Virus record (IMG/VR): IMGVR_UViG_3300021339_000006
Location: 1 to 64,000 of that record
DNA: 64,000 bases
Reading direction: 5' to 3' (one strand)
Source of the DNA: a virus
Shown here: piece after piece, positions 12,763 through 62,932 of the stretch
Position numbering within the stretch: position 1 is the stretch's first letter
Layout of the letters: every line of letters begins with the position of its first letter
The notes under the pieces: generated by a model
What the model was told of the DNA's origin: nothing
Database searches by the model: none
Seen by the model: the letters and a program-made list of their open reading frames with translations, nothing else
Position numbers and translations under genes: made by a program

Positions 12763-12768
12763 ACCAGA

Positions 12769-13212: not shown

Positions 13213-13241
13213 AGTTTACTCGCTTTCTGTTTGTTGATTGC

Positions 13242-13868: not shown

Positions 13869-14364
13869 AAATGCGAAAGTCTCCTTCCTCAGTCACCCGA
13901 ACGTCTCCGCCTAGTGTCATTCTCATAAATTCCGGTTCCGGCTCCTCGTCCTCTTCGGACACTGTCAACGTGGCATTGATTGTGAAAAAGTGCCTCCGTT
14001 TCGATCCCACCGTTTCCATGCCCAGTGAGAGCACGCCACTGCTCCTTGAAACGTTGTGAACAAGATAGGCGCCCTCAGAAGTTAGCGCAACAGAAACCCT
14101 TCTCACCGAGTCCAACTGGAGCGCAACGTCGCGAGCAAACTGCCACGTTTCCACATAAGCCTTCCCGCGGATGGTAATCTGGATGCCAGGATGTTCGATC
14201 TGTTCCCCAGACCGCATGAGCCTTCCATCCTTGCGAGGATCGGTATCATAAACACAAAGAGCAATGTCTGGTTCCTCAGGGAAGAAAGCCACGTAAGAAT
14301 TCTCAGTCGTCACCAATGCCAAGTCGATTAGCAACTGACGAATAATATCTGAGTAGGGCATCAT
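13861..14364 (-). CDS. Tail terminator / minor capsid protein
   Basis: 167 aa from the ATG at 14364 (ATGA overlap). The N-terminus (DIIRQLLIDLALVT, then PDIALCVYDTDPRKD) matches the Minor_capsid_3 type of tail terminator proteins, which end the tail tube at the neck. The C-terminus is acidic, then basic. The order connector, HK97-gp10-like, terminator, tube supports the call. Confidence 0.72.
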   Translation of the reverse strand: MMPYSDIIRQLLIDLALVTTENSYVAFFPEEPDIALCVYDTDPRKDGRLMRSGEQIEHPGIQITIRGKAYVETWQFARDVALQLDSVRRVSVALTSEGAYLVHNVSRSSGVLSLGMETVGSKRRHFFTINATLTVSEEDEEPEPEFMRMTLGGDVRVTEEGDFRIYG

Positions 14365-14846
14365 AAGATTTTCTTTATCTCGTCTCCTACAACCTGCCGC
14401 AACGTTGGGCCGAATTCCCTGAAAGGTTCTTCGAGGAATTTGGGCTGTGCCTTGCCCTGCGGATCCCAATAACGACCACCCTTCCTAAACTGCCCGCCCT
14501 TCGTGTCACGCACCCTGCCTGCGCTGTCCACTGATCCTCCCATTCTCGGCTGTCCTTTGAGGCGCATTCCTGGCGGCCAGATCTCTCTGTTCTCGTGGAC
14601 GTAGATGGCGTATCCAGCGGTAAAGCCAACGTTGACCACGGTCTTGACCGCCTCGCCCTCAGCGCGCGTAAACGCAGACGCTTTGAGGATGCCAAAATTG
14701 ACTGGAACTTTGAGCTGGGCTTCTCGCTGTAGCAGCAAGCCGGCTTTCTTCAGCCCTCGTGCCACAGCCAAACCGATCTTCCGTTCTGCACCTTTGATAT
14801 TGCGCAACACGTTCTCCGTTCCAATGAATCCTGCATCAATCTTCAT
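14361..14846 (-). CDS. HK97 gp10-like head-tail connector
   Basis: 161 aa from the ATG at 14846 (ATGA overlap). Features of HK97 gp10-type neck proteins: an N-terminal helix with GLKKAGLLLQREAQLKVPV, then TAGYAIYVHENRE with the VHE motif, and a C-terminal helix. It probably links the head completion ring to the tail terminator. Confidence 0.78.
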   Translation of the reverse strand: MKIDAGFIGTENVLRNIKGAERKIGLAVARGLKKAGLLLQREAQLKVPVNFGILKASAFTRAEGEAVKTVVNVGFTAGYAIYVHENREIWPPGMRLKGQPRMGGSVDSAGRVRDTKGGQFRKGGRYWDPQGKAQPKFLEEPFREFGPTLRQVVGDEIKKIL

Positions 14847-15181
14847 ATAAACGCAGTCAGCAACCACTCCGTCGCGCGCAGGTTTGGATTTTGATCGAAC
14901 CGACGTATCTCGTCCGACGCCACTTCCATCGGATCGTCAGGAATGTCCGATGGCATTTCGCCTAACATTAACCTGTCTCCGGCAGACATGATACGATCCA
15001 CATAAACCACAGCCTTGGATATTTGACGCTCTCCCTTGGAATCAAGGAACTCCTGCGCAGTGCCATCCCACCGACAATCAATCTCAACAGGTTCATCAAA
15101 GGAAAAAGTGCCATAGTGGTCAGCATCCAAACGCTTCCACCATATCGCCTTCTGCCTGCGCATCCTTCGAATCAAACTCAC
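14843..15181 (-). CDS. Head closure / head-tail joining protein
   Basis: 112 aa from a GTG at 15181, overlapping the upstream stop as GTGA with GGAGG 6-7 nt before. The body (KAIWWKRLDADHYGTFSFDEPVEIDCRW, in part) matches small head closure proteins that plug the portal ring before tail joining. It lies between the gp6-like adaptor and the gp10-like connector, separated from the adaptor only by a DUF115-like gene. Confidence 0.68.
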   Translation of the reverse strand: MSLIRRMRRQKAIWWKRLDADHYGTFSFDEPVEIDCRWDGTAQEFLDSKGERQISKAVVYVDRIMSAGDRLMLGEMPSDIPDDPMEVASDEIRRFDQNPNLRATEWLLTAFI

Positions 15182-15816
15182 GCTGCCACCTCCAGTTTCA
15201 AGTAATCGTGAAACGCTTGGAAGTCCATAAAAGGAAAACAAGTGAGACGTGAAGTTCCGTCTGTGACGTTTAACACCTCGACACCTGCTGGAAGCTCCTT
15301 CCGTATTGTGAGGAAGCCACGCATGAAACGCTCAAACGCTTTATCCTTGGTCAACGTGGTGTTGAACTTGTGCCAGTGGGATTCCTTCGCGGCTGAGTTG
15401 CACAAGTCGTAACCGAGCAGGAAGATACGCTGCGCGCCTAATGAGATCGCTAAGTTGATCGCCATTGCACCCGTTGAGTAGTTCCATCCGAGAGTGTCGC
15501 CATCGTGGAGACCGTCGCGCACGCGCTTCATCTTCAGTAACTGTGGCACGTCCCATCCTTCCAGCCCAGCGTTTGTTACAAGTCGGTTGGTAAATACTTC
15601 TTTGAGGTCTGGAAGTGCTTGGCGCATCCACCATGCCAGATCACCGAAGCATCCAATCTTTATGATGTCATTTCCGAGGCGGCAGGCGTCGTTGCATCCA
15701 ATTGTGTTCCTGCCACTGAGAAGCTGAAAATCAAAGCGGCGCAAAGAAGGGCCGCCTCCAATCAAGAAACAGTCCTGTCCATTCCACTCACGGTCCGGGA
15801 TCCAGTAAGCGTTCAT
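15178..15816 (-). CDS. DUF115-like / norphogenetic protein, possible glycosyltransferase
   Basis: 212 aa. The N-terminal FLIGGGPSLRRFD is the nucleotide-sugar-binding glycine motif of DUF115/MAF and GT42-like proteins, followed by CNDACRL and TGAMAINLAISLGAQRIFLLGYD, a Rossmann-like segment. Many phages carry this gene among virion genes under the name norphogenetic protein. It overlaps the adaptor gene by 29 nt and breaks the neck-protein order. It could work with the glycosyltransferase operon at 20-25 kb; the substrate is unknown. Confidence 0.68.
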   Translation of the reverse strand: MNAYWIPDREWNGQDCFLIGGGPSLRRFDFQLLSGRNTIGCNDACRLGNDIIKIGCFGDLAWWMRQALPDLKEVFTNRLVTNAGLEGWDVPQLLKMKRVRDGLHDGDTLGWNYSTGAMAINLAISLGAQRIFLLGYDLCNSAAKESHWHKFNTTLTKDKAFERFMRGFLTIRKELPAGVEVLNVTDGTSRLTCFPFMDFQAFHDYLKLEVAA

Positions 15817-16183
15817 CAGCAGTGCGTCCCAACCAAAGGACGCTAGGGCGGCGTTTTCCTGACGCTAATGCCCGTAGGCTTCCACTTGTGTCAAGGGTTT
15901 GTGCCATTTGCCCGTAATGCGATGTGTTTAGGCCTAGGGCAACGGCGCTTTGATAGCTGGCGCTCACTGGGCCGGCTTTTTCTGCCGTGGTGCGCGGATC
16001 GCGAACGGTGTAGAAATGCGCAGCAAGCCATGTCTCGACTAGCTGCAAACGCTCTGTGGACAATTCACTGCCCTCAGCGATCTGCTCAACAAGCGCGTTT
16101 GCAGCTAGGATAAAGGGATCGAGGTTAATCAACGGATCGACCTCAATAATCCCTGCGACTAATTCTGTGGTGGTGCGTGGCAC
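15788..16183 (-). CDS. Head-tail adaptor (gp6-like / DUF4054 type)
   Basis: 131 aa, GTG start. The block VETWLAAHFYTVRDPRTTAEKAGPV, in parts, and VALGLNTSHYGQMAQTLD fits the DUF4054-type adaptor that sits on the portal. N-terminal helices carry many Leu and Ala. The position directly after head genes supports the role. The start lacks a clear SD, so an internal start is possible. Confidence 0.7.
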   Translation of the reverse strand: MPRTTTELVAGIIEVDPLINLDPFILAANALVEQIAEGSELSTERLQLVETWLAAHFYTVRDPRTTAEKAGPVSASYQSAVALGLNTSHYGQMAQTLDTSGSLRALASGKRRPSVLWLGRTADERLLDPGP

Positions 16184-16186
16184 GAT

Positions 16187-16657
16187 TTACTTGTGGTGTG
16201 CCCTCTTGGCCTTAGCAGCTTTCTTTGCGCTGCTCTCTTCACCCTCGTCTTCGTCCTCGTCCTCACTCCACTTGTCACCCTTGTCAGCGGCAGCCTTCTT
16301 GGCACCCTTACTGATGGTGGCCGTTTGCAGGTGGGCACCATCAGCGCGTGACTCCTGCCCTGCGCGTGCTGTGCTCCCTGTGTCCTTGACATGCGTCCCT
16401 GCGAGCTGTGTCGAATCGCCCACTGGCTGGGCTTCCTCGTCCTCGTCCTGGTTCCCCAGCTTGAGACCCTTGGGCAGTGGTGCGCCTGGGCTGCCAGGAG
16501 CGCCAAAGGGCCGCCTGGGCTCGCTGCGGTCGCCATCGACACGCTCGAACTTCTCAGGAAACATGGCATCGAGGTCGGCATTTGTGGTGACAACCTCGTC
16601 CTTGCGATAGACCCTGCCGCCTTCGCGGTGTGTCCCTAATTTGACTCTGAACTTCAT
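16187..16657 (-). CDS. Capsid-adjacent protein with acidic then basic tail
   Basis: 156 aa. Residues 1-40 form a small conserved-looking domain (FRVKLGTHREGGRVYRKDEVV), as often found after phage capsid genes. The rest is low complexity: Gly/Pro-rich, then Ser/Asp/Glu (EDEDEDEGEE), then Lys/Ala (AKKAAKAKRAHHK). Function unknown. Its leader shares 14 nt with the capsid gene leader. Confidence 0.6.
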   Translation of the reverse strand: MKFRVKLGTHREGGRVYRKDEVVTTNADLDAMFPEKFERVDGDRSEPRRPFGAPGSPGAPLPKGLKLGNQDEDEEAQPVGDSTQLAGTHVKDTGSTARAGQESRADGAHLQTATISKGAKKAAADKGDKWSEDEDEDEGEESSAKKAAKAKRAHHK

Positions 16658-16669
16658 TTTCGTTCTTTC

Positions 16670-16683
16670 GTTTACTGGTTAAT
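16670..16683 (-). repeat. Leader repeat, copy 1 (before the 156-aa gene)
   Basis: The minus strand reads ATTAACCAGTAAAC, then AAGAAC, then the start codon. The same 14 nt with almost the same spacing precedes the capsid gene at 17773-17786. Confidence 0.75.
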
Positions 16684-16696
16684 GGTTTCAGTCACT

Positions 16697-17761
16697 TCAG
16701 GGAGCCACGCCGTGGACAATACCAGTCTGTCCATCGTAGTCCGAGCGAAGCTGCGGAACCCAGATCGCCATCACTTTGAAATGCACGCGCATTCCGCCGT
16801 CCGTCTCCCACTGCAAGGTGGTGATGTCCATACCATTCACGAGCCGCGCCACGTCGCTCGTCATTTGCACGAGGATCATTTGGAAGCCAGTGAGGTAATC
16901 GACAGTTTGGATTTCCGACACGCCGTTGATCTGCATCAAACGCTGGCGGACGGAGTTGTCTCCCTTCTCGTCGCTGTAGTCATTGTCCAAGAACAAGTCC
17001 CAGTCCGGCGAGACGTAGAGCGTCCACGGGCCGAAGTAGTTATTGTTGGTGGACAACTGGCGCATCTCGAGCACCTCGTTGAGCAAGGTCTTCGGAGTCC
17101 AACCACTTGCTGTCGGATTCGTCAACACCTGAGTCAACCGCCCAATGTAATTGGTGAGGCCGTAAACAGTCCCGCCGCCGTAGCTGTATGTCCCAGCAGT
17201 GCCGAGGAACAGTTTCTCAGCCTCTTCCGTCACCTTGCGCGCAGCCAACTGCGCTGTCGTGGTGTCCACGCCCTGACCATTGTTGCGGGAGACCGCAATC
17301 TGGCGTGCGTTGAAGAAGAAGTCCTTGTGAATCACGGGCAACGGAAGGTTGATCGTGTCCGTCTCAGGGCGATCGCCTTCGCTCTTACGCGCCGGATCCA
17401 TGCTGATGGTCGCCGGTGTGATGTCGCCCATCCGATCCGACTCAAGCACTGTTTTACCCATGCCGTTGGGCACAGTGTAAACCAAGCCCTTGCTGCGGAA
17501 GTCCGAAATGATCCGGAGCCGTTCACGCGCAGCCATTGTCACTGCGTCGTCGATCTGTTTCCACTCGTCTTTGCGCAAAGTGGCGTTCCGAGTCAACACT
17601 GGTGTGGACACCAGCTTGTTGGTTCGGAGGTCCTTTGTGGCAATGTAGTGCCGCCCGTCATCCCCAACCCAGGGACGCAGTGTGGCAACGTCGAAGCCGT
17701 TGGTAAGGAGCGTCGAAGCGACGTTCCCTATGGCGCGGCCATTGTAAATGAAGTCTTTCAT
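16697..17761 (-). CDS. Major capsid protein (HK97 fold, encapsulin/linocin-like)
   Basis: 354 aa. Sequence character and position (after scaffold/protease and decoration genes, before adaptors) identify the major head protein. Blocks such as EEAEKLFLGTAGTY, GLTNYIGR, YFGPWTLYVSPDWDLFLDNDYS and MQINGVSEI resemble the linocin/encapsulin-related group of phage capsids. Residues 1-90 would be the N-arm and E-loop. No cleavage of a long N-terminal delta domain is evident, so scaffolding is probably supplied by the 487-aa protein. The leader is A-rich with no SD. Confidence 0.85.
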   Translation of the reverse strand: MKDFIYNGRAIGNVASTLLTNGFDVATLRPWVGDDGRHYIATKDLRTNKLVSTPVLTRNATLRKDEWKQIDDAVTMAARERLRIISDFRSKGLVYTVPNGMGKTVLESDRMGDITPATISMDPARKSEGDRPETDTINLPLPVIHKDFFFNARQIAVSRNNGQGVDTTTAQLAARKVTEEAEKLFLGTAGTYSYGGGTVYGLTNYIGRLTQVLTNPTASGWTPKTLLNEVLEMRQLSTNNNYFGPWTLYVSPDWDLFLDNDYSDEKGDNSVRQRLMQINGVSEIQTVDYLTGFQMILVQMTSDVARLVNGMDITTLQWETDGGMRVHFKVMAIWVPQLRSDYDGQTGIVHGVAP

Positions 17762-17772
17762 TTGTTCTTAAT

Positions 17773-17786
17773 GTTTACTGGTTAAT
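17773..17786 (-). repeat. Leader repeat, copy 2 (before the major capsid gene)
   Basis: Identical 14 nt to 16670-16683, also followed by AAGAAC and the ATG. It may be a translation enhancer or a processing/promoter element for abundant head genes. Confidence 0.75.
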
Positions 17787-17796
17787 CGGCCGTCCG

Positions 17797-18231
17797 TCAC
17801 AAGATACGAACACGCACGCGAGTATCAACTTCCGCGGCGGAATCGCTCAAGTCCATTTCTTCGAGTGGAACGCCAATTCGCACGTCCGTCCCGCCAGCAA
17901 CCTTCAGCGTCCCATCACCATTGCTGGTGAGAAACTCATTAGGTGTGCAATGCTCGCCTGCCGCAAGGAAGGCAAACACAACGTCTCCAGACTTCTGGAC
18001 GCCGACGGCAACGAGTTCGCCGACTGCGTAATTGTCACTGATGCCGCGGCCCTGCAGCGCATCTTCCAGCGCAAAGGTTTTCTCCGCGTGCCCGCCTGCT
18101 GTGCCGTGCGGGATCAAATTCCCAGCACTGTTAAGCGCAACGAGCATACCCGGCGTGATGATGGCAGCCGCGCGCCCTTCTTCGTGGAACCCTTCTCCCT
18201 TGAGTTGGATTCGTGTTGGTCGTGTTTTCAT
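17797..18231 (-). CDS. Capsid decoration / stabilisation protein (DUF2190-like)
   Basis: 144 aa, beta-rich. It has the layout of DUF2190-type decoration proteins: ITPGMLVALNSAGNLIPH, AVGELVAVGVQKSGDVVFAFL and a C-terminal VDTRVRVRIL strand. It lies between scaffold/protease and capsid genes, the usual place for a head cement protein. Confidence 0.7.
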   Translation of the reverse strand: MKTRPTRIQLKGEGFHEEGRAAAIITPGMLVALNSAGNLIPHGTAGGHAEKTFALEDALQGRGISDNYAVGELVAVGVQKSGDVVFAFLAAGEHCTPNEFLTSNGDGTLKVAGGTDVRIGVPLEEMDLSDSAAEVDTRVRVRIL

Positions 18232-18265
18232 CGTTTTGTTTTAGTGATGTATGTGATCTGACGCG

Positions 18266-19729
18266 TTAGGCGGCAGCCGTCTTCTTGTCAAAGTTCATCA
18301 CCGGAATTTCCAACGGCGCCTCACCAGAGGTCGTTGCGTTGCCGACCGGTGCCATTCCCGCATAGCTTGCCTGCGCAGTCTCAGAGGTCGCAGCCGACAA
18401 GCGGGCCAGTTTGCGCAGCTCACCAAGCGGCCGCGTGTTCAATTCTTCCTTCGCGAACTCGTTGCTCTCGTTGGCAAGGATAACATCGACCAGCTTGGTC
18501 TTTTCCTCGTTGAGAGACTGCATTGAGTTGCGCAACACTTCCCGCACTTCGGGCGGAGCATTGTCCACGTATTCCTGCACGTTGACAACCTTCGGAGGAG
18601 CCGAAGGTGTGACAGGAGGCGGAACCACCGGCGGCGCGGCCGGAGGTGTCACGGGAGGTGCAACAGGTGGAGGTGTTGCTGGCGGCGTGATGCCGTTCAC
18701 AACAATGTCCAACTGCTTATCGTTGTAAGCCATCAAAGCTGCGCGGTCGGTCTCTGCCCACCCCGCATTCGCTGCAATGATGCCGTCCACTTTTTCTTTT
18801 TGTGTCTTCATCGCGGTTGTTTCTGTTTCTTCTTCTGCGGGACGGTGGTTCCCAACAAAGGAACCATCAACCGTCCGGTATTCAGTGACTCGCTTTACCT
18901 TAACCGGCGTCTCGTCACTCAACGAAACGTCAGTGTCATTTGACATGTAACCGAGCCGCCAAAATTCATTCTCCTTCTCGTAAATAAAGAAGTTGGAGAA
19001 CACATCCACCACCCAAATGTAAGGGCCGTTCTCACCGACCTTGAGTTGGTCGCGCAGCTTTTGGGAAAGCGCGCTGTGGATGTTACTGTAAGACATTTCG
19101 TTGTCTGCCAGTCCCATCTTTGTCAGCAACTGATGGAAAGCCTGACCAACCGGCGATCGCTTATCCGCTGCTTGGTTGCGAAGGAAGCCGGCACCGTCAG
19201 CAATCGAACAAGCGCCGATCTGGTCAGGCAGTAACGCAAGATGGTCGGGCCGGTAGTTGCGCGCAACGAGGCTGTAATCCTCGGACTTCCATTTGCCCGT
19301 CGTGTTCTCTCCGTCGAAAAATAATCCAGTGGAAAGCTCCATCATCTCTTTCGCCTTCACTGCCTTAAGGATTCGATCGTCGATCAAATCGGCGCGGTCC
19401 TTTTCAATCCACGCCTCGCTGGTGAGTCTGTTGTTGGCGAACTTAGTGTTGAGCATCAAACCAACCTTGCGGTTGTTGATAACGTCGGGTTGGCACGCAC
19501 TGATCCCTTCGCCGTTCAGCGTCGGATGGTAAACCACCACTGGTTTGTGATTCCAAACCTCAGGTGTCTTTTCCAACTCGTCCTTTGGATAAAACACAGG
19601 GCCGGCCGATCCTGCATGGACGCCCTCAGTGAGGATAACCATCGGAACCACCACATGAGTGCGTCCTTCCAGCGTTTCCTCACGTGAATTTGCAGCCATT
19701 AAATTGAGTGTGATCTTTGAGTAAGTCAT
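18266..19729 (-). CDS. DUF2213 prohead protease fused to scaffold-like domain
   Basis: 487 aa. Residues 1-200 match DUF2213 phage proteases (VFYPKDELEKTPEVWNHKPV, VVYHPTLNG, MELSTGLFFDGE). A middle domain of about 100 residues follows, then a Pro-rich linker (repeats of PPVTPPA/PPV, residues about 345-372) and a C-terminal helical, Ala-rich part like a scaffold. The single polypeptide would both shape and mature the head. The Pro-rich linker could be the self-cleavage or flexible segment. The start ATG follows GGAGGAG at a long distance. Confidence 0.8.
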   Translation of the reverse strand: MTYSKITLNLMAANSREETLEGRTHVVVPMVILTEGVHAGSAGPVFYPKDELEKTPEVWNHKPVVVYHPTLNGEGISACQPDVINNRKVGLMLNTKFANNRLTSEAWIEKDRADLIDDRILKAVKAKEMMELSTGLFFDGENTTGKWKSEDYSLVARNYRPDHLALLPDQIGACSIADGAGFLRNQAADKRSPVGQAFHQLLTKMGLADNEMSYSNIHSALSQKLRDQLKVGENGPYIWVVDVFSNFFIYEKENEFWRLGYMSNDTDVSLSDETPVKVKRVTEYRTVDGSFVGNHRPAEEETETTAMKTQKEKVDGIIAANAGWAETDRAALMAYNDKQLDIVVNGITPPATPPPVAPPVTPPAAPPVVPPPVTPSAPPKVVNVQEYVDNAPPEVREVLRNSMQSLNEEKTKLVDVILANESNEFAKEELNTRPLGELRKLARLSAATSETAQASYAGMAPVGNATTSGEAPLEIPVMNFDKKTAAA

Positions 19730-19826: not shown

Positions 19827-20228
19827 TTAGTTTCCAGCTTCTTGTTTTTGCTGGGACTCGAGTAGGGCATCGGCCGGATTGGATGGAATGAACGGTCTCA
19901 GAAGGATGCAGTTGTTGAAAAGATTCTGCACCGTCTGCTCGGGATCGTCCGATATGAGAGCGCGTAGTTCCGAGGGTGTGATAGCGTTAGCAAAAGCATC
20001 CGTGAGAACCTTCAACGACTCTCCCACAAGTTGGTATTGCAAAACTGTTGTCCGCATTTGATCCACCAAGGCTGTTGTGCCAGACCGCTGGTGGCTTTGC
20101 ACCGTTGTGACAATGCGCCGCCATCGCCGCTCCACCTCCTCAGTTGGAATGCCCATCTTACAAGAGATGCGGGCGTTGGTCATTCCCATGGACTTGTATT
20201 TGACTATCAAGGCATCATCGGTGAGCAC
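19827..20228 (-). CDS. Small protein with N-terminal helix-turn-helix pattern
   Basis: 133 aa, GTG start with AAGGAGGAC 4-5 nt upstream, overlapping the glycosyltransferase gene by 22 nt. Residues 8-38 (VKYKSMGMTNARISCKMG, then EEVERRWRRI) read like an HTH, the rest is helical. It may bind DNA or act as a head-assembly helper; no family recognised. Confidence 0.5.
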   Translation of the reverse strand: MLTDDALIVKYKSMGMTNARISCKMGIPTEEVERRWRRIVTTVQSHQRSGTTALVDQMRTTVLQYQLVGESLKVLTDAFANAITPSELRALISDDPEQTVQNLFNNCILLRPFIPSNPADALLESQQKQEAGN

Positions 20229-21043
20229 GCTGTCCTCCTTATTGAAATATAATCGAAAAGCACTTTGCGATTCTGACTGGACTGGATCGGATTCTTGTAA
20301 TCACCAAACGGTGCGGGATGCCAACGATGGAGCAAGCCTAGCCGATCGTTGAGTTCGATCAGCTCTCGCGCCTTGCGCCGACTGATTTCTTCCCGACACC
20401 TTTGCGTCACGTTGTCCATACGCAAGTCTCCGGGCAGTGGGTCGGCTTGCTGTTGGTGGTGCTCCAGCATGTAAATTTGCTGGTAATCCTCCCACCCGTG
20501 TCCTTTGAATTCAGAAACGCAGCCACCCAACTCGAGGTAATCCAAACGCCGACAAATGAAATTCGTGCCAGCTGGAAACGGGTAGCTCGATGGATGCTCG
20601 ATAAGGTGGTAATACTCCGACACGAGAATGGGCATCTTGCTTGGTGATAAGTTGGAAATCGACGTCCCCTGATCCATGTAATACATGCCACCATTGAACC
20701 ACTGCCGAGGCTGCGCCGTTTCCAGGATTGGGAGCAACTCTGTGAAATAGCGCGTGTGGGCAATGCAGTCCACGTCGAGCTTCATAATCCAATCAGATTT
20801 GGCAAGTGCCGCGCCCACGTTGTGGTAGTGACCGATCGAACGAGGTGCTCGATCGCTGCTCCTGCAATCCACAAATTGCAATGCCTCGCACTCATACTGG
20901 AGTGCCCACTCTGGAATCGTGCTAGGGGAAATGAGCATGTGACACACGCCTTGCGTAGGCGCGGCACAAACGGATTTCAACCACAAGGTCAGCATCTCCG
21001 GCCGATTCCAATAAGGTGTGATGGTGGTGAGGATTGGTTTCAT
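20207..21043 (-). CDS. GT-A fold glycosyltransferase
   Basis: 278 aa. The N-terminus TTITPYWNRPEMLTLWLKS is a GT2-type beginning, and DWIMKLDVDC (about residues 93-102) supplies the DxD metal/nucleotide-sugar site. A later GHGWEDYQ motif resembles the galactosyltransferase C-terminal (GT27/GT7-like) acid. The gene closes the head-module sugar operon; ATGA links it to the gene upstream. The acceptor is unknown. Confidence 0.78.
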   Translation of the reverse strand: MKPILTTITPYWNRPEMLTLWLKSVCAAPTQGVCHMLISPSTIPEWALQYECEALQFVDCRSSDRAPRSIGHYHNVGAALAKSDWIMKLDVDCIAHTRYFTELLPILETAQPRQWFNGGMYYMDQGTSISNLSPSKMPILVSEYYHLIEHPSSYPFPAGTNFICRRLDYLELGGCVSEFKGHGWEDYQQIYMLEHHQQQADPLPGDLRMDNVTQRCREEISRRKARELIELNDRLGLLHRWHPAPFGDYKNPIQSSQNRKVLFDYISIRRTACSPMMP

Positions 21044-21213
21044 TCTGCTTTTGCGTTTCTTAGGATCTTGTCTGGATTGGCGCCTTTGAGTTTTAGTAGC
21101 ACCCGCAGAATACGATTCTCATCACGTGCGGCATCATTCTTCTTTTGGGTAATAATGTCAGCCTTGCGCTCGGTAATGACTCCAAGTTTCGGTCTTCCAA
21201 CGCGCGCTTTCAT
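21040..21213 (-). CDS. Small basic protein in the sugar operon
   Basis: 57 aa, MKARVGRPKLGVITERKADI at the start. Both ends overlap neighbours as ATGA, which strongly supports its being translated. Very basic; the VGRPKL motif resembles an AT-hook or a ribosomal-type loop, then a long charged helix. Not recognised. Confidence 0.6.
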   Translation of the reverse strand: MKARVGRPKLGVITERKADIITQKKNDAARDENRILRVLLKLKGANPDKILRNAKAE

Positions 21214-21845
21214 TTCCGAGAATAGTATCTGTCGCCCCAGCCTTGTTTCATCATCTTTGTTTCTTTGGGAAACAACTGAAACTTGGCAAGGTGGTCGTCG
21301 ATCTCTGGCGTGAGTGGACAGTCCTTGTAAAGGTGCTTCTCATTCACCTCAATGTAGGCGTGATCAAACTTCCAAAGCAGATCGCCCATCCCGCGCAACG
21401 CCATCAGCTCTGCTCCCTGCAAGTCCGCATTGAGAAACCATCCCGGCCCTACAATGTCTTTCAACGCCCAACAGTGCAACAGGGTATCCAACCGAATCGT
21501 TCGCATTGGGTGATCCTTAATGAACTTGGTGGTTGGGTGTTCCTTCGCGTGCGTGTCAAACGCCAAGAAGCTGGAACTTTGTGACTCGTTGTTGGCTTCA
21601 TGAAACATTACCTGCTCCCCGTCGTGCTCACCCAAGCACGCACAGATTGCGAAGTTGCCTGGAAACGTTGCCAGCTTGCGCACCAGCTGCTGGTGTATAT
21701 GGGGCAATGCTTCCACCCATATCACCTTCCGAATGCCCAGGGCGGCATACGCCTGCGCTTCCTGCCCGAGATTAGCACCAAGGTGGAGGACGCCAGGTGT
21801 TTGAATGTTGTGGCGTTTGAAGAGTTCATCGAAGGGGATTAGCAT
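21210..21845 (-). CDS. FkbM family methyltransferase
   Basis: 211 aa class I SAM methyltransferase. GVLHLGANLGQEAQAYAALG is the SAM-binding motif I (residues about 18-37), with WVEALP as motif II and FLNADLQGAELMALRGM (about 138-154) the D.QG.E signature of the FkbM group. FkbM enzymes O-methylate sugars or small molecules, fitting the neighbouring glycosyltransferases. Confidence 0.85.
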   Translation of the reverse strand: MLIPFDELFKRHNIQTPGVLHLGANLGQEAQAYAALGIRKVIWVEALPHIHQQLVRKLATFPGNFAICACLGEHDGEQVMFHEANNESQSSSFLAFDTHAKEHPTTKFIKDHPMRTIRLDTLLHCWALKDIVGPGWFLNADLQGAELMALRGMGDLLWKFDHAYIEVNEKHLYKDCPLTPEIDDHLAKFQLFPKETKMMKQGWGDRYYSRK

Positions 21846-21846
21846 A

Positions 21847-22515
21847 TCAGGTTACGATTAAGGGTTTGTAAATTTGCTCGAACACCTCCACTCGACGTTC
21901 CCAAGTGTGCTGTCCTGCAAAGTGAATAGTTGGCATTCCTTTTCGCCACAGGATGCCGTCATGCCACATCTCAGGGCAAAAGCATCCGATCTCTTCTGCG
22001 CTTGCTGCGTAGATGCCCTTGAAGGCAGTCTCTCGAATGATCTCATCCATATACCATTGCTCCCAAGGAGGATAGGTAACGATCACGCGCTTCTTAGGTT
22101 CGATGCGCAGCGTTCCAATGGTGCAGCGCTCATGCCACTCATCGACAAAATCCATGGCATCCGCTGTCCTCTTCCACACCGTCAATCCAGCGCAGATGTA
22201 TTTCCAGAGCTTCCAGTTGGCTTGGTGGTAACCTGCCATGAAAATGTCCTTTTTGAGGAGGTCAGCCAAGTCCACTCTAAAGTCCATAAACGCCACATCA
22301 GCGTCTGCCCACACAATCTCTTTATATCCAGCCAACATCGCTTCCCGAATGACGTGAACTTTGGTAAAGCTGGGATGCAGGTCTGGCCAAAACTTCTCAC
22401 TTGTCTGCAAGTAGTCGTATCCACGTGCCTCCGCATACAGCCTGTGGTTCTCGAGGAACGGCTGGCAGAGGGAAGCGATCTCTGGCGTTGCGACAGTGAG
22501 TAGGGCTTTCTTCAT
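21847..22515 (-). CDS. GT34-like (or related GT-A) glycosyltransferase
   Basis: 222 aa from the ATG at 22515 (ATGA overlap). EIVWADADVAFMDF (about residues 66-79) carries the D.D site in the manner of galactosyl/mannosyl transferases of the GMA12/MNN10 type. MKKALLTVATPEIASLCQPF at the start and a His-Trp-rich C-terminus (HFAGQHTWERR) are consistent. Probably uses UDP- or GDP-sugars. Confidence 0.72.
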   Translation of the reverse strand: MKKALLTVATPEIASLCQPFLENHRLYAEARGYDYLQTSEKFWPDLHPSFTKVHVIREAMLAGYKEIVWADADVAFMDFRVDLADLLKKDIFMAGYHQANWKLWKYICAGLTVWKRTADAMDFVDEWHERCTIGTLRIEPKKRVIVTYPPWEQWYMDEIIRETAFKGIYAASAEEIGCFCPEMWHDGILWRKGMPTIHFAGQHTWERRVEVFEQIYKPLIVT

Positions 22516-23069
22516 GGCTTTTGTATCCACCAGCTTGGGTAGTCCGTCTCCTGCGTCACGTTCACTTTCAGCCCGTGCGTCGCAGCAAACGTATCCACCG
22601 CAGTCTTGACGCCGTAATCACCGGACTCAATCACGCCATCCAAGTAGTCATGCCCTGCCAAGATTCCATGCCGACGCACCTTGGGCCACCACAACGCCAC
22701 GTCCTCTGTAGCTGCCGCAAGCGTATGGTTAGCGTCGATGTAGGCAAAGTCCAGGAAGTCGTCGCTAAAGTGCGGCGCAGCTTGCGCAGAGGTCATCCGC
22801 ATTGGAATGGCACGCTTCCTGTAGTCGCGCGCCCGCGTCAAGATGCGTTGATAGCGGGCTTCCTGGTCATTGTCCCCATGCACGCTGTAGCCTGGCACAT
22901 CGAGGATCTTCCAAGGATCAATCTGCCAGCATGTCAACCCTAGAATTCTATCTAGAAGATCGAAGCTGAAGTAACCCTCCGCCACTCCAACTTCCACGGC
23001 ATAGTTGACCAGACCTAAGTCCTTCAACGCACCTGCAAAGTCTTTCCTCGTTCTCATCAATGTCCTCAC
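22512..23069 (-). CDS. Class I SAM-dependent methyltransferase
   Basis: 185 aa. AVEVGVAEGYFSFDLL is motif I, followed by DFAYIDANHTLAAATEDVALWW, the Methyltransf_24 pattern in which DANH marks the active-site loop. Several in-frame starts exist: ATG 23072, GTG 23069 (5 nt after GGAGG, GTGA overlap) and ATG 23057; I prefer the GTG. It lies inside the sugar operon and probably methylates a sugar or its precursor. Confidence 0.78.
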   Translation of the reverse strand: MRTLMRTRKDFAGALKDLGLVNYAVEVGVAEGYFSFDLLDRILGLTCWQIDPWKILDVPGYSVHGDNDQEARYQRILTRARDYRKRAIPMRMTSAQAAPHFSDDFLDFAYIDANHTLAAATEDVALWWPKVRRHGILAGHDYLDGVIESGDYGVKTAVDTFAATHGLKVNVTQETDYPSWWIQKP

Positions 23070-23791
23070 CATTGCCTCCGTATCTTTTTAGTTGGTATCG
23101 GTCTTTCCCAAACACGCTCCCCAGTCCACTCCGGAACCTTCCCCACGTATTGGATATCCTGCGCAGTCGAAATGTAGGCAGCCTGCGAACCACCGCGCTC
23201 ACTGAGGCGGCCAGGCAGCGGGCGGTTATACCAGTAGAAAGGCTTGAAGCGTTCGGCGATCCCAACAGAAGTAACGCCTTCCTTTTTCAATCTCCGATCC
23301 AGCTCTTGATCGTCCCCTGCGTATTGCGGGCGGTAACCTCCACAGCGTTCCACTAACGTCCTACGAAATCCCCAACAGCCATGGTAGGCAAAACGATCTG
23401 TGTGACGCCAATGGAATGTATCGCTCTGCACCCATTCACCATCAACGTGATCTATGGCAACACGTGGCTGAACAAATTGGCTACCTTGCAACGCGTCAAC
23501 AATGGACTCCAGCCACCAAGGCATGTAAATATCATCGTCGTCTGCCTTCGCCAGCGCGTCACTGTCAAAGGAAGCCATTGCGATGGCTGCATTGTTCTTC
23601 TCCCCGAGCGAACGAAACCGACGAGGAACAGACACCACATGCCACCTGTCACCCGACTGGTTTTCATACTGTCCAGAATCATCGAGGATAACCAACTCCC
23701 TATTCTCATAGGTTTGGTTTTCAAAGCATTTGATCATCCGCCCTAATAGCTCTGGGCGATTCAACGTCGGACAAAATGCGGTGATTTTCAT
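23066..23791 (-). CDS. GT2 family glycosyltransferase
   Basis: 241 aa from the ATG at 23791 (ATGA overlap). Classic GT2: ITAFCPTLNRPELL at the start, VILDDSG, then ALAKADDDDIYMPWWLE with the DxD, and AGDDQELDRRLKKEG with the catalytic ED/DD region. No membrane segment is seen, so it is a soluble transferase. Confidence 0.85.
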   Translation of the reverse strand: MKITAFCPTLNRPELLGRMIKCFENQTYENRELVILDDSGQYENQSGDRWHVVSVPRRFRSLGEKNNAAIAMASFDSDALAKADDDDIYMPWWLESIVDALQGSQFVQPRVAIDHVDGEWVQSDTFHWRHTDRFAYHGCWGFRRTLVERCGGYRPQYAGDDQELDRRLKKEGVTSVGIAERFKPFYWYNRPLPGRLSERGGSQAAYISTAQDIQYVGKVPEWTGERVWERPIPTKKIRRQW

Positions 23792-24531
23792 TTCAGGCGT
23801 TCCCACTCTACGGGAACGATGTCTTTTACATCAAGCCCATTCCACCCAGGCACAAACCAAGGCGTTGGCATCACCACACGCTTCATCGGATTCTGATTTA
23901 ACCATGCAGCCCACCACGAGAACGTGCTGGCAGAACAAATTTGATTCCAACACCAACTCATCTCGACCAAGTCTTCCAGCTCATTATTTCCTTCCGAGAA
24001 CGTGCAATCGTCCCTGTGCCCGAACGTCTCTTTGCACCACGAAATATCGTCACTGAAGAATCGAAAGTTCTCACCAGGAAAGGTAGCCATTGCACGCTCG
24101 ATCCATTGCACAGGAACTGGTGGATGCTTCCGTGTCCAGCGCAAGTAATCACCGCGCCGAACGTGGACGGCTGTGCCAGAATGTGGAAACCAAGGAAAGT
24201 CGAACAGGTTGCGGATATTCCACTCCCACTTTTTGAAATACTTCTCCGACTGCCAGTAACCGTTGAGCAGAATGTTCTGCTCCCGCCACTCCTCCTTAAA
24301 GGGCCGCTCGTGATGGCAGAACACCGGCTCCTCAATCGTTACTGACGGCAGGTTCGGATTGAAGTTTGGGTTGACAAGGTGCTGGAGATAGACGGGACTC
24401 CACTTGGGATCCCTCGACTCTGCCAACGTTGGCATGGTGAACTCAAGTTGGTGGTCCAGTGCGTAGCTGATTGCGCCTGCTGCTTGGAACAAGAAATTGC
24501 CCAAGCGTCCGTAGGTTAGGGGCTTGACCAT
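23788..24531 (-). CDS. GT11 alpha-1,2-fucosyltransferase-like enzyme
   Basis: 247 aa from the ATG at 24531. GRLGNFLFQAAGAISYALDH near the start and VHVRRGDYLR (about residues 141-150), the H.RRGDY nucleotide-binding signature of GT11, then FFSDDISWCK and SASTFSWWAAWLNQ, are all typical. The family transfers fucose from GDP-fucose. Its presence implies a deoxy-sugar or hexose cap on the phage glycan. Stop-to-start gap is 1 nt. Confidence 0.87.
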   Translation of the reverse strand: MVKPLTYGRLGNFLFQAAGAISYALDHQLEFTMPTLAESRDPKWSPVYLQHLVNPNFNPNLPSVTIEEPVFCHHERPFKEEWREQNILLNGYWQSEKYFKKWEWNIRNLFDFPWFPHSGTAVHVRRGDYLRWTRKHPPVPVQWIERAMATFPGENFRFFSDDISWCKETFGHRDDCTFSEGNNELEDLVEMSWCWNQICSASTFSWWAAWLNQNPMKRVVMPTPWFVPGWNGLDVKDIVPVEWERLK

Positions 24532-24532
24532 G

Positions 24533-25168
24533 CTAGATAAGGAGTTTGTAGTATTCGCCTTCTTTGAACTTTGTGCCAAGTGTAATGGATTCCTGCGCGC
24601 TCTCCTCGTGGTAACGGGCAAGTGGAAGGATCCGAAAGTCCATGCTTACACGCGCCGCATTGGTGCAGTTGCGATGATTTCCGTGCGTGAGAACGTTGCC
24701 ATCGAACGCAATCAACTCCCCTACGCGCATACGCATAGGCTCAAAGTCCTGCTTCCCTGGTTCCGATTCAACCCACACGCTGGCTGATCCGTCGGAATTG
24801 GTTAGTGGGATGATGTAGTTCTTCTCGCCCTTAGGGTGCCCGAACGCAGCATCATTGTGGAAGGCGCCGACAGCAACATTGCCTGGAAGGTGGATGCGGA
24901 AAGTAGGAAACCGCTGATAGAGGATTCGCATCGGATACGTGGGCGCGACTACCGACCGAACAAAGTCCTCGTAGGTATTCACCATCTCCGGCCACCCAGC
25001 ACGATACTTGTCATAAAAACGTTTGTGGAAAGATGTGGAAGAGTCAGCGCCTACTTTGAACAAATGCTCGTGGTGTTCCTGCAAAGAGGAGAGGTCTTTG
25101 GTTTCAAACAAAGCCTCCAACAGTCCAACAAAATCAAAGCCTGAGTAGGGTGTAGTCGTGTATCTCAT
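24533..25168 (-). CDS. 2OG-Fe(II) oxygenase-like protein
   Basis: 211 aa. FRIHLPGNVAVGAFHNDAAF gives the H.D pair (FHND, about residues 103-106), NYIIPLTNSDGSASVWVES the cupin core, and LTHGNHRNCTNAARVSMDFRI the distal His and the 2OG-binding Arg. This resembles StrG-type and phytanoyl-dioxygenase-like sugar or small-molecule hydroxylases. First gene of the sugar operon after the MuF-like head gene; it likely oxidises a sugar or nucleotide-sugar substrate. Confidence 0.75.
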   Translation of the reverse strand: MRYTTTPYSGFDFVGLLEALFETKDLSSLQEHHEHLFKVGADSSTSFHKRFYDKYRAGWPEMVNTYEDFVRSVVAPTYPMRILYQRFPTFRIHLPGNVAVGAFHNDAAFGHPKGEKNYIIPLTNSDGSASVWVESEPGKQDFEPMRMRVGELIAFDGNVLTHGNHRNCTNAARVSMDFRILPLARYHEESAQESITLGTKFKEGEYYKLLI

Positions 25169-26086
25169 TTATTTCTTCTTCTTCGGTTCTGGTGTTAAGC
25201 CAGCAAGGGCAGGAAGCCAAGCACACCGACAATTGGGATGGAGAGGAATGATCCCTCTCGCCTCGTCCACAGTTAGGATTTCCCCTGCACGCGCTGAGCA
25301 TTGTTCACACACCCTATCATCTCCAGCTGTTGACCATTCCACCTGCAAGCCCAGCTCATCCACGCCAAGCTTCTCGTAGGCATCCAGCTGCCCTTCCGAA
25401 TGGGCATTTATGATCTCTGTCCGCGCGATCATTAGCGCACGCGCGTAGGACAAGGAATCAATCTTGTCGGTCATTGCCCTTGCTATGGCAGTCGCCCCTA
25501 GTCCGTCCACCATGCCCTGGGCGAGGATTGTGTTGAGCTGAGCGCCCATTGTAGCAGTGACGCCACGCAGCTCCTCGTAGGTGCGCATTCCAAGCAAGCG
25601 CACTTTGCTCATTGCTTCTGGCTGGTTGAAGGAGTCAGCGAGGAATTTGGATTCGGTTATGTCCTCCTCCAGCAAGTCCGCCCTGCGTGAGGCTAGGTAG
25701 GCGTTGATGTGCCCCTTCTTGTAAGCCGATTCGATATACTCCGTCGTCCAAGGTTCGTCTGCATTTGCGCCTGGTGGGAGGGAAAAGATGTCCGCCTCTA
25801 CTTGCTGCCGGAACCAATCGTTGAACGCTTTGAGCTTCCCAGCATCGGTTCGGAATTCATATTCGCGGCGCTGTGCGAGGATGGCGAGACCAAGCTTCTT
25901 CTCCTTCAGTCCCAATGCGTCCAGCTCTACAATGAACTCTCGGACATGCGCCTTGAGCTTTCGGAAACGTCGCAGGAGATCTTGCTCAAACTTGCGCCGA
26001 ATCATCAACGTCCTCGTGGGATCCATCCTCAATGGATTCTTTCGCACGTTGAACGTTGGCTTTTGGTTGGTGGTGCAACAGGACAT
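25169..26086 (-). CDS. Mu F-like minor head protein
   Basis: 305 aa from the ATG at 26086 with GAGG 8-9 nt upstream. The C-terminal half has the MuF signature: ALMIARTEIINAHSEGQLDA, EWSTAGDDRVCEQCSARAGE with the CxxC, and IPLHPNCRCAWLP. The N-terminal half is helical. In this class the protein sits inside the head near the portal and helps assembly or is ejected. Located directly after portal, as expected. Confidence 0.88.
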   Translation of the reverse strand: MSCCTTNQKPTFNVRKNPLRMDPTRTLMIRRKFEQDLLRRFRKLKAHVREFIVELDALGLKEKKLGLAILAQRREYEFRTDAGKLKAFNDWFRQQVEADIFSLPPGANADEPWTTEYIESAYKKGHINAYLASRRADLLEEDITESKFLADSFNQPEAMSKVRLLGMRTYEELRGVTATMGAQLNTILAQGMVDGLGATAIARAMTDKIDSLSYARALMIARTEIINAHSEGQLDAYEKLGVDELGLQVEWSTAGDDRVCEQCSARAGEILTVDEARGIIPLHPNCRCAWLPALAGLTPEPKKKK

Positions 26087-26141
26087 AAAAATTTGCCTCG
26101 GCTGGCCAAAGGATGAAACCAGCCGAGGCGCGCGGCGGAGA

Positions 26142-26570
26142 TTAACCGCGTGATTTGCGAGACGGAGCCGGAGGAGGTGTCTCCTCATCCTCTTCGTCGC
26201 CTTCTTCTTCGTCATCGGCTGGGATCAGCTCGTCCTGAGACTCCGGCGCCTCAGCAACTTCCACGGTGGTGGCATCTTTGTGCGCCACTGTGTAACCAAT
26301 CTCCACAACCAGCGGAGTCACGTCTGGACCGACGTGAGCGTCAACCTGAACGCTGACAACCTTGTCGCCAAGCGCGCCGTCACCGTTGACATAAATGACA
26401 ATCTCCTTCTGGCTTGAGTCAGGTGAAATTGTGGGCGCGGACGAATCGCCTTCCACAACTGCACCGACAGCAAACGCGCCACTGTCCAGCACGTCCACTG
26501 CCTCATCAGGCGTCAATGTCAGTTTGCGCCGGTAGCCTGGCTTGATGGACTTCTTGAGTTGAACTCTCAT
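26142..26570 (-). CDS. Head-module protein with acidic C-terminus
   Basis: 142 aa from the ATG at 26570 (ATGA overlap, GGAAG upstream). Beta-rich body (YRRKLTLTPDEAVDVLDSGAFAVG, in part; VGPDVTPLVVEIGYTV), then an acidic run (DDEEEGDEEDEE) and PPPAPSRKSRG. Not recognised. It lies between portal and MuF-like genes. Confidence 0.6.
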   Translation of the reverse strand: MRVQLKKSIKPGYRRKLTLTPDEAVDVLDSGAFAVGAVVEGDSSAPTISPDSSQKEIVIYVNGDGALGDKVVSVQVDAHVGPDVTPLVVEIGYTVAHKDATTVEVAEAPESQDELIPADDEEEGDEEDEETPPPAPSRKSRG

Positions 26571-28817: not shown

Positions 28818-29238
28818 GCTTCTCTCCCACTGGACCGACGCGACGCGACGGAGGACCATCTACTTTCTTAATACCTGCATCATCCGCCAAGATGTTCTTC
28901 TCCAGTTCTCCAACCATGGGTGATTTGGTTCGCATGTCCAGCACGCGCAGGCGTCGCATTCCAGCAATGCGCAGCAGGATCAGGTAGCCAAGCAAGTCCA
29001 ACACAACGTCCTCACCGAACGCATTGGGACTGGATGCCATGCGACTCAGCTTGTCGTCGAGGCGCACCTTGATCTGTTCCGCAGCATCCGCTTTGGAGAA
29101 GATGCGAACGGGATTGAGGGCAGAGTCACCATACGCCCTGTTCTTCTGAATCAGGAGCGTTTGGATTTCATTGCAGACAGTTGCGATGTCTGCCTGAGTT
29201 TGGAGCAGCATCTCTTCTGTGGTTTCGTTGCTAATCAT
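28807..29238 (-). CDS. DUF1599/Nmad1-like nucleotide-associated protein
   Basis: 143 aa from the ATG at 29238 (ATGA overlap with thyX). The region LIQKNRAYGDSALNPVRIF, then IKVRLDDKLSRM and DVVLDLLGYLILLRIAGMRR resembles DUF1599 (nucleotide modification associated domain 1), a small all-helical fold related to MazG-type enzymes. Supports a role in nucleotide pool handling. Family call from memory. Confidence 0.62.
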   Translation of the reverse strand: MISNETTEEMLLQTQADIATVCNEIQTLLIQKNRAYGDSALNPVRIFSKADAAEQIKVRLDDKLSRMASSPNAFGEDVVLDLLGYLILLRIAGMRRLRVLDMRTKSPMVGELEKNILADDAGIKKVDGPPSRRVGPVGEKHGT

Positions 29239-30161
29239 ACCTTTGAATACTTTGGAATCCACGCTCCTTCGGCCGTCTGGTCGAAGTCACACATCAAACG
29301 CGGCTCCTTCTCCACTAATATCTTCGCCACCTTGGAAAGCGCCACGGCGATTTCCTCCTCCGCTGCTGGGGACGTGCGCAGCGCAATGATGTGCCGCAGT
29401 GCGCGCAGGTTCAGCGACCAAACTCCGCCTGTCGCTACGCCCATTGGAATAATCCGGCGCAGGCAAGAGGTGAGCTGCTTCTTGAGATGGAAATTGTTGT
29501 TGGAATTGTCGATGTCCCACGTCTTCATCAAGTCAACATAGGCTTCCTGCGCAAACTGAAAGACACTGGCGAATACCTTCTGCGTATAACGCTTCTTGCT
29601 TGCGAGGTCATACAACTTCATCTGCGGAGATTTGCTAGGCTGCCCAGGAGGCACGTTCCACGGATCTAACTCCTCCAAAACTTCTCGCTCTTCCTTTGTC
29701 AATCGAATGGACGAGGGCATCCACCAAGGGATGTCTGTGAACCGAATGTATCTCATGGAACCCTCGCTGATCGCCACGCCCGCGCGATGCCTGTTCATCT
29801 CGCCAGTAAAGACTCGGCTGACTCCTTCGATGGCAAAGTTGTAGGTGGCGTGTTCGAGGACAGAACCATGACCGGACTTGAGGATGTTCTCAAAGTATTC
29901 GTGCCAGTCCTTGCGCACCTTGGTGACGTTTGGATTCAAGCCAGGCTCGAAACTCATGTAGCAGCGTTTGGCAGCGAGCCCAATGATGGATTCCGCACCA
30001 CTCAAAGGCTTGTGCTCACTCATGCTCCCAATGCCTTTGAAACAGCCATCTTGAGGCCAGGCGTATTTGGTAGCGCCTACATGATCCAACCACCTTCGAA
30101 TCTCAGCGTCATCCGCTTGCGTCGCACCAATACAAAAGACCTCAATTTCAACATTTCTCAT
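29235..30161 (-). CDS. thyX: Flavin-dependent thymidylate synthase
   Basis: 308 aa. Makes dTMP from dUMP using methylene-THF, FAD and NADPH. The ThyX signature is at about 124-138: NRHRAGVAISEGSMRY, with one more residue between RHR and Ser than the common RHR-x7-S form. SGHGSVLEHATYNFAIEGVSRVF, in parts, supplies the FAD/substrate His region. The C-terminal third (LRHIIALRT) is conserved too. First of a small nucleotide-metabolism group. Confidence 0.9.
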   Translation of the reverse strand: MRNVEIEVFCIGATQADDAEIRRWLDHVGATKYAWPQDGCFKGIGSMSEHKPLSGAESIIGLAAKRCYMSFEPGLNPNVTKVRKDWHEYFENILKSGHGSVLEHATYNFAIEGVSRVFTGEMNRHRAGVAISEGSMRYIRFTDIPWWMPSSIRLTKEEREVLEELDPWNVPPGQPSKSPQMKLYDLASKKRYTQKVFASVFQFAQEAYVDLMKTWDIDNSNNNFHLKKQLTSCLRRIIPMGVATGGVWSLNLRALRHIIALRTSPAAEEEIAVALSKVAKILVEKEPRLMCDFDQTAEGAWIPKYSKV

Positions 30162-62891: not shown

Positions 62892-62905
62892 TTTCGTTCT
62901 CGAAA

Positions 62906-62932
62906 GGGTGCCGGCATCTGCGTCCGGCACCC
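62906..62932 (-). promoter_or_regulatory. 9-bp hairpin in the queD leader
   Basis: On the minus strand GGGTGCCGG pairs perfectly with CCGGCACCC around a 9-nt loop. AAGGAGG overlaps the foot of the stem on its 5' side and the ATG lies 14 nt after its 3' side. It may hide the ribosome site, bring a distant SD close, or end transcription partially (only TTT follows). Confidence 0.65.

Follow-up and report, generated by a model that had tools for sequence, protein, structure and literature searches.

The DNA analysed here (the window) comprises 64,000 nucleotides, positions 1 to 64,000 of the IMG/VR virus record IMGVR_UViG_3300021339_000006, and carries on its minus strand seven enzyme genes and one small gene between the genes of a MuF-like head protein and a head maturation protease. 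A first reading, made from the letters of the DNA alone (the sequence-only reading), had placed eight genes between the MuF-like protein and the prohead protease, and all eight open reading frames as well as both flanks were confirmed at the following positions:

25169..26215, minus strand: MuF-like head protein, upstream flank (PF04233, 5e-16; phrog_758 head morphogenesis, 3e-37)
24533..25168, minus strand: 2OG-Fe(II) oxygenase, optional cassette member (partial TIGR04324 match, invariant residues, fold model)
23788..24531, minus strand: GT11, alpha-1,2-fucosyltransferase family (PF01531, 3.2e-20; motifs)
23066..23791, minus strand: GT2 glycosyltransferase (PF00535, 1.1e-11; DDDD motif)
22512..23072, minus strand: class I SAM methyltransferase, Methyltransf_24 (PF13578, 1.7e-14; motif I)
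21847..22515, minus strand: GT34-like glycosyltransferase (PF05637, 2.9e-4; profile and fold matches; DxD)
21210..21845, minus strand: FkbM-family methyltransferase (PF05050, 1.4e-11; TIGR01444, 7.5e-12)
20207..21043, minus strand: GT-A glycosyltransferase, Glyco_tranf_2_2 (PF10111, 1.2e-7; D[VI]D motif)
19827..20228, minus strand: small gene with HTH-like N-terminus, not basic, between cassette and protease
18266..19729, minus strand: head maturation protease, downstream flank (phrog_530, 7.9e-6; phrog_760, 1.1e-36; phrog_2229 also matched)
15178..15816, minus strand: DUF115/MptE-like, sialyltransferase-like gene after the capsid gene (PF01973, 4.6e-5, below cut-off; phrog_4603, 8.4e-29)

Junctions were computed with starts fitting the neighbouring genes (GT11 24531, GT2 23791, GT34-like 22515), and for GT11 the ATG at 24531 was preferred over the TTG at 24621. 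Strict ATGA overlaps occur at GT11/GT2 and methyltransferase/GT34-like, GT2 and the methyltransferase overlap by 7 nt, the GT-A gene and the small gene by 22 nt, and the MuF/2OG, 2OG/GT11 and GT34-like/FkbM junctions are 0–1 nt apart. With true ATGA overlaps at two junctions only and a gap of 166 nt separating FkbM from GT-A, the previous description of the genes as joined mostly by ATGA overlaps does not hold. Scans for promoters and terminators gave matches at chance level. The small gene had been called basic, which its product is not (pI 5.8; K+R 14 vs. D+E 15); it is conserved in its place between cassette and protease and, in L038, present without this cassette. The DUF115-like gene was rejected as a cassette member, since it also occurs where the cassette is missing (16 of the 17 family records, cassette-bearing or not).

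The enzyme identities proposed earlier were largely borne out. Five enzymes (GT11, GT2, Methyltransf_24, FkbM and Glyco_tranf_2_2) score above the curated Pfam cut-offs, e.g., GT11 with 73 bits against PF01531 (cut-off 23.9), and the TIGR01444 match of FkbM likewise exceeds its cut-off. The 2OG oxygenase, which gave no Pfam match, matches TIGR04324 (“sporadic carbohydrate cluster 2OG-Fe(II) oxygenase”) only partially (2.8e-6, 27.1 bits vs. a 150-bit cut-off) and is supported by its fold model, a double-stranded beta-helix (pLDDT 83; best Z 13.2, PtlH), which together with the invariant H104-x-D106…H162…R173 supplies the HxD…H metal triad and the Arg for 2OG expected of this enzyme class. The GT34-like assignment follows weaker matches: PF05637 at 21.1 bits, under the cut-off of 23, a profile match to xyloglucan xylosyltransferase (4e-4), and A064R-D1 of chlorovirus PBCV-1 as best fold match (Z 10.0, with other glycosyltransferases within Z 1), the model showing a GT-A fold in its better-modelled N-terminal part and a poorly modelled second half. 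Degenerate motifs, which would have spoken against these assignments, were not seen in the alignments of relatives: GT11 retains HVRRGDY, FFSDD and ASTFSWW, the GT2 DDDD motif is found in 17/17 sequences (71–76% identity among relatives), DxD of the GT34-like enzyme in 12/12, motif I of the methyltransferase in all sequences displayed and D[VI]D of GT-A in every full-length relative. With dN/dS values of 0.02–0.17, as compared to 0.06–0.08 for the portal gene, the cassette genes are under purifying selection with their catalytic motifs intact.

When the genes were compared as a unit against other phage genomes, at least 17 further, distinct IMG/VR contigs proved to carry this set at the corresponding place, a recurrence that is more than chance. 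The 2OG gene is missing from many cassettes and varies in position among relatives, and three relatives feature an empty slot (L091, L092 and L068). The cassette is an inherited part of this soil-virus clade and has co-diverged with the portal (Mantel r of 0.83 for GT11, 0.82 for FkbM and 0.87 for GT-A). One relative (G010) has the cassette together with the terminase, head and tail genes of the window, but almost none of its replication genes, and in L100, which has an unrelated, Flavobacterium-podovirus-like portal, the cassette sits between terminase and portal. Among isolated phages this enzyme set was not found: the INPHARED phages gave no match to the cassette region at the DNA level, and GT2 and the 2OG oxygenase of the window matched no protein of any INPHARED phage. 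We also found no description of the set in the literature searched, which includes few subscription papers.

Taken together, the cassette probably represents a phage-encoded glycan assembly line, organized as one operon with the head genes, whose acceptor would most likely be a virion protein. This reading is favoured because the cassette is conserved with the structural module, because cassettes recur in head modules of unrelated phages, and because relatives carry genes for GDP-fucose synthesis in the same slot: the portal relatives L060 and L061, a sister group, encode Gmd and Fcl there, with Gmd of L061 scoring over the equivalog cut-off. In the host cytoplasm during infection, GT2, the GT34-like enzyme, GT-A/Glyco_tranf_2_2 and GT11 could assemble a short oligosaccharide, to which GT11 would most likely add L-fucose or a close GDP-linked sugar; L-fucose transfer from GDP-fucose is the most likely activity, predicted only from the synthesis genes of the relatives. 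O-methylation of the sugars would fall to the two methyltransferases, and in cassettes that have it the 2OG oxygenase might hydroxylate or oxidise the glycan or its acceptor, for which a head protein would be the first choice. The benefit would probably be a masking of the particle or altered surface properties. The sugar donors, the sequence of the steps, the linkage, the acceptor and the benefit are what we infer.

By analogy, the best reading is a pathway for glycosylation of virion proteins that would work like those of Corndog mycobacteriophages and chloroviruses. In cluster O mycobacteriophages, an O-methyltransferase and three transferases occupy the same slot and were proposed to modify the capsid (PMC4351075), and Corndog gp38 was reported as essential capsid glycosyltransferase (PMC12363180); the earlier statement that known phages carry single glycosyltransferases was thus too strong. 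In Corndog, Firecracker and Dylan, four overlapping or adjoining genes lie between portal and capsid maturation protease, and the window likewise shows a glycosyltransferase and methyltransferase cluster between portal/MuF and head protease. Three of the four genes belong to families (Methyltransf_24, Glyco_tranf_2_2 and Glyco_transf_25) that are also represented in the window's cassette or in the sister type, as seen for Firecracker (L119) gp33 (Methyltransf_24, 1.7e-9), gp35 (Glyco_tranf_2_2, 1.2e-4, below cut-off) and gp36 (GT25, 2.9e-5). However, the cassette described here comprises seven such genes, GT11, GT34-like, FkbM and 2OG enzymes were not recognised in cluster O, and there is no close sequence homology, with profile comparison of gp33–36 to the cassette giving marginal values for GT-A/gp35 (E 0.0035) and GT25/gp36 (E 0.0067; set of eight proteins). 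GT25 itself belongs to the sister cassette type and is absent from the window. This slot also holds capsid-sugar genes in some mycobacteriophages, but the enzyme set described here is larger and no isolated phage was found to have it.

In chlorovirus PBCV-1, virus-encoded glycosyltransferases and sugar O-methyltransferases (A064R, A061L) act on the major capsid protein (PMC9614988), and, as mentioned above, the GT34-like model resembles domain 1 of A064R most closely in fold. PBCV-1 is, however, a eukaryotic algal virus with an N-glycan and a three-domain fused enzyme, and close sequence homology was not detectable. The closest isolate relatives of GT11 and FkbM are from cyanophages, which counts against the virion reading: T4-like cyanophages encode homologues of GT11 (31–34% identity) and FkbM (about 28–31%), and in Synechococcus phage S-SM2 the GT11 gene adjoins an annotated GT25, but otherwise lies in a cluster rich in genes for nucleotide sugars and other metabolism, and no head gene is annotated within 9 kb of it.

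An acceptor was sought in the major capsid protein. The 12 cassette-bearing and 14 cassette-free sequences compared did not differ in length, Ser/Thr content or C-terminus, nor did we observe a cassette-specific tail, insertion or acceptor signature. The lack of a cassette-linked acceptor feature in the capsid protein counts against the virion reading and leaves the capsid itself as a putative acceptor. Alternatively, though we consider this unlikely, the glycan could be attached to the tail, with the tail tube, the J-like tip and a collagen-like protein (13242-13868) as candidate acceptors; Pro or Lys residues would then be hydroxylated by the 2OG enzyme and glycosylated by the glycosyltransferases, as described for mimivirus L230, a collagen hydroxylase-glucosyltransferase accompanied by a collagen-like virion protein (PMC9614988). 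Mycobacteriophage glycans were indeed reported on tail tube subunits (PMC12619734), the 2OG model also resembles prolyl hydroxylases (Z about 12), the collagen repeat (PF01391, 8.4e-7) lies in the same minus-strand structural gene run, and the clade-specific tail genes, including that of the J-like protein (651-3857) at the tip, track the cassette no less closely than head genes. L230 is bifunctional, whereas the window enzymes are separate. Against a tail acceptor, genomes with the cassette do not conserve the collagen-like protein (one weak match among four), many cassettes do without a 2OG gene, and in this clade as well as in L100 the cassette sits among head rather than tail genes.

Glycosylation of DNA is known in phages, and the sequence-only reading had proposed a multi-step glycan on capsid or DNA. 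Hypermodification, in which a base would be hydroxylated and then decorated with methylated sugars as a shield from host nucleases, could in principle be achieved by the 2OG oxygenase and the glycosyltransferases; the methyltransferase matches phrog_2675, named DNA methyltransferase, and the window encodes a 7-deazaguanine route (FolE, QueD, QueE-like radical SAM, QueC) together with a TGT/DpdA-like protein. Yet ThyA-type hydroxymethylase (PF00303) and C5 DNA methylase (PF00145) were absent from nine records with the cassette, a number of which are fragments, ThyX was present in only four of these nine, and the tested 7-deazaguanine genes were found in the window and only one of 11 other cassette-bearing records, so that none of the known routes of DNA glycosylation contributes an enzyme that consistently accompanies the cassette. 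Many cassettes lack the 2OG gene, the methyltransferase is a Methyltransf_24 by Pfam and not a DNA methylase, and in G010 the cassette tracks the virion module where the replication half differs. With base-hydroxylation routes absent or inconsistent and the cassette kept next to an unrelated replication half, the DNA part of the earlier proposal is unsupported and quite improbable, while a virion-tied glycan stands as best reading.

The families GT11, GT2 and FkbM occur frequently in gene clusters for bacterial surface polysaccharides, and one cyanophage GT11 gene sits among nucleotide-sugar genes, which would fit enzymes modifying host capsule or LPS, e.g., for superinfection block or receptor change. 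This is very unlikely, as the cassette is placed inside the head operon, no transmembrane segment was predicted in any window cassette enzyme (hydrophobicity threshold), and flippase, polymerase and lipid-carrier transferase families gave no match above cut-off, so that the membrane flippase and lipid-carrier transferase of serotype-conversion (gtr) systems were not recognised among them. Auxiliary metabolic cargo that makes a glycoside without connection to the particle, either soluble or a small molecule, would agree with the partial match to a carbohydrate-cluster oxygenase and with 2OG fold relatives acting on small molecules, but has a very low probability, since the cassette keeps strictly to the head slot and has co-diverged with the portal, both of which are unusual for loosely held cargo.

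If the virion-glycan reading is extended to the whole, widespread soil phage clade, its core virion traits could include a full pathway to a methylated capsid glycan of the fucose type, inherited vertically, as a phage counterpart of chlorovirus capsid glycosylation whose cassette is transferable between unrelated phage families and repeatedly lands in head modules; this broader view is tentative, and we lean slightly against it. If true, elaborate virion glycans would be part of the heritable particle structure throughout an uncultured soil phage clade and not a mycobacteriophage oddity, the defined set (GT11, GT34-like, two methyltransferases, 2OG oxygenase) would allow reconstitution of a phage glycan, and the empty-slot relatives would make the purpose of a phage sugar coat testable. 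Caution would also be advised in calling such genes carbon-utilisation AMGs, as was done for glycosyltransferases of soil phages (PMC12501426).

A further gene, c11 in L015 and L030, was considered as Gmd but rejected, being another SDR with Fcl as best NCBIfam match far below cut-off; by eye only, it resembles GDP-mannose 3,5-epimerase. A genome scan for the host retrieved two MAG contigs only, assigned to Bacteroidales and Actinomycetes, both of which are probably stray viral contigs.

The window covers 64,000 of the 76,797 bases of the virus record. The genes of the MuF head protein and the head maturation protease flank seven genes for enzymes and a further small gene, as the sequence-only reading had it:

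19827-25168, minus strand: cassette of 2OG-Fe(II) oxygenase (2OG), GT11, GT2, class I SAM methyltransferase (Methyltransf_24), GT34-like, FkbM and Glyco_tranf_2_2 glycosyltransferase (GT-A) genes

Five of the enzymes (GT11, GT2, Methyltransf_24, FkbM and Glyco_tranf_2_2) score above curated Pfam cut-offs. The GT34-like protein falls under its cut-off, its family profile matches a xyloglucan xylosyltransferase (4e-4), and its structure model is poor over the second half; the better-modelled N-terminal part has a GT-A fold, with the PBCV-1 capsid glycosyltransferase A064R-D1 as best match (Z 10.0; other glycosyltransferases within 1 Z). The 2OG oxygenase gave no Pfam match and a partial TIGR04324 match, its HxD...H...R set is invariant, and its good model shows a double-stranded beta-helix nearest to PtlH (Z 13.2). 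Joining mostly by ATGA overlaps, as proposed earlier, holds for two recomputed junctions; the rest are one 7-nt and one 22-nt overlap, three contacts of 0-1 nt and one gap of 166 nt, and the small gene, described as basic, has a product of pI 5.8 and hence is not.

An IMG/VR portal search found 173 relatives, 80 of which were retrieved, and GT2 and 2OG searches added more loci. With near-identical contigs collapsed, the same MuF-to-protease slot holds a cassette in at least 17 other distinct virus contigs (L012, L014, L015, L018, L019, L021, L023, L024, L026/27, L028/30, L029/96, L032, L034, L037, L041, L097 and L098), and several further contigs break off within it. Two types occur. That of the window is GT11-GT2-MT-GT34-FkbM-GT-A (MT, methyltransferase), where 2OG can lead the set, precede GT-A or be missing; the sister type runs GT2b-GT11-MT-GT25-FkbM or c35-MT-FkbM-GT-A. 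Among more distant relatives, the slot is empty (L091, L092, L068), occupied by Gmd and Fcl (L060/L061, the Gmd of L061 being over the equivalog cut-off) or filled by a Methyltransf_23 and an unclassified gene (L036/L038).

Several neighbouring features vary. The MuF proteins of L016, L024, L027, L030 and L019 bear long, variable C-terminal extensions, some of these proteins (748-1050 aa) with an HExxH motif; the MuF of the window has no such extension. In L058 (4860-6650), an intein-like insertion (CLPGDMLVS ... HNC) seems, by eye, to interrupt the MuF gene. L090 (6647-7963) carries a DUF115/MptE-like and GT2-like domain fusion between portal and MuF, followed by a GT34-like gene, and L003, a 117-kb virus contig, unites GT11, 2OG and DUF115 (9001-18767) among genes resembling, by eye, those for sialic-acid and nucleotide-sugar synthesis. 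Small secreted fibronectin-III-like proteins are encoded at 75126-75938 of the record (in L010), in L024 (19270-19863) and in L027 (14866-15276), those of relatives within or adjoining the cassette; their style, which we take to be like that of Verrucomicrobiota proteins, is a possible hint at the host.

On the terms of the sequence-only reading, degenerate motifs would refute the proposed multi-step glycan; instead, the catalytic motifs are kept among relatives, with few changes in HVRR[GT]D, FSDD and ASTFSWW of GT11, DDDD of GT2, DxD of GT34-like and GT-A, and the SAM motifs. Pairs of close relatives give dN/dS values of 0.02-0.17 in cassette genes versus 0.06-0.08 in the portal gene. GT11, FkbM and GT-A distances track portal distances (Mantel r 0.82-0.87). 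In whole-genome comparison, the relative G010 matches the window in terminase, head, tail and cassette genes but almost nowhere in its replication half, whose genes are unrelated. Judged from these comparisons, the cassette is inherited rather than passing cargo, and it goes with the virion module rather than the DNA-metabolism module.

Similar placements occur in other head modules. L100, a contig of a different phage lineage (portal like Flavobacterium podoviruses, 23.6%; no match to the capsid protein of the window), carries between terminase and portal a 2OG gene, 59% identical to that of the window, with GT11, methyltransferases and FkbM. In cluster O mycobacteriophages (Corndog, Firecracker, Dylan), the stretch from portal to protease likewise holds three transferase genes and one for an O-methyltransferase, of Pfam families identical or related to those of the cassette; the set of the window is larger and chemically richer. 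The head-module placement is independent in L100 and cluster O. Capsid modification was proposed for the cluster O genes by their authors (PMC4351075), and later work, as summarised in PMC12363180 and PMC12619734, reports glycosylated subunits of both capsid and tail tube. We regard the locus as genuine and conserved, a phage glycan cassette that by function fits best with the virion-glycosylation loci of Corndog type.

The genes, motifs, selection, inheritance and placement are observed; from them we infer that the cassette probably puts a glycan on a virion protein, and the donor, order of steps, linkage, acceptor and benefit are likewise inferred. Cytosolic glycosyltransferases would assemble a short glycan on the protein, with GT11 transferring a fucose-type sugar from a GDP donor; methylation would fall to the FkbM and Methyltransf_24 enzymes, and the 2OG oxygenase, where present, would add a hydroxyl. 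Such a donor is plausible since the slot of some relatives contains Gmd and Fcl genes; no Gmd/Fcl-type profile matched within the 64-kb window, so the donor would have to come from the host.

As acceptor, a head protein is preferred over a tail protein. This preference rests mainly on gene position, since clade-specific tail genes also correlate with the cassette in the whole-genome comparison. No acceptor signature was found in the capsid protein. Modification of DNA, the other target proposed earlier, is disfavoured: ThyA-family and C5 DNA methylase genes occur in none of nine cassette-bearing records and ThyX in four of the nine, the two tested 7-deazaguanine genes turned up just in the window and in one of 11 other such records searched, and many cassettes lack 2OG. 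Because several of the records are fragmentary, the ThyA, C5, ThyX and 7-deazaguanine absences carry less weight; five records besides that of the window reach at least 67 kb.

The window itself carries ThyX (Thy1, 3.2e-34; 29235-30161) adjoining the head module, as do only some relatives, and preQ0 genes (39371-40015 and 59959-62930: QueC, GTP cyclohydrolase I, QueE-like radical SAM, QueD) with a TGT/DpdA-like protein (phrog_887, 3.2e-27), a gene content that suggests 7-deazaguanine DNA modification. Its tail gene run includes a collagen-like protein with GXY repeats (13242-13868; PF01391, 8.4e-7), not conserved among relatives. Near their N-termini, the proteins at 12769-13212 and 5543-6613 are almost identical over one segment (EKE[IV]TPPG[IM]TAGGPIDTTTMRNTTWRTM). 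They probably represent a tail tube protein and its duplicate, and one of them has a long C-terminal extension.
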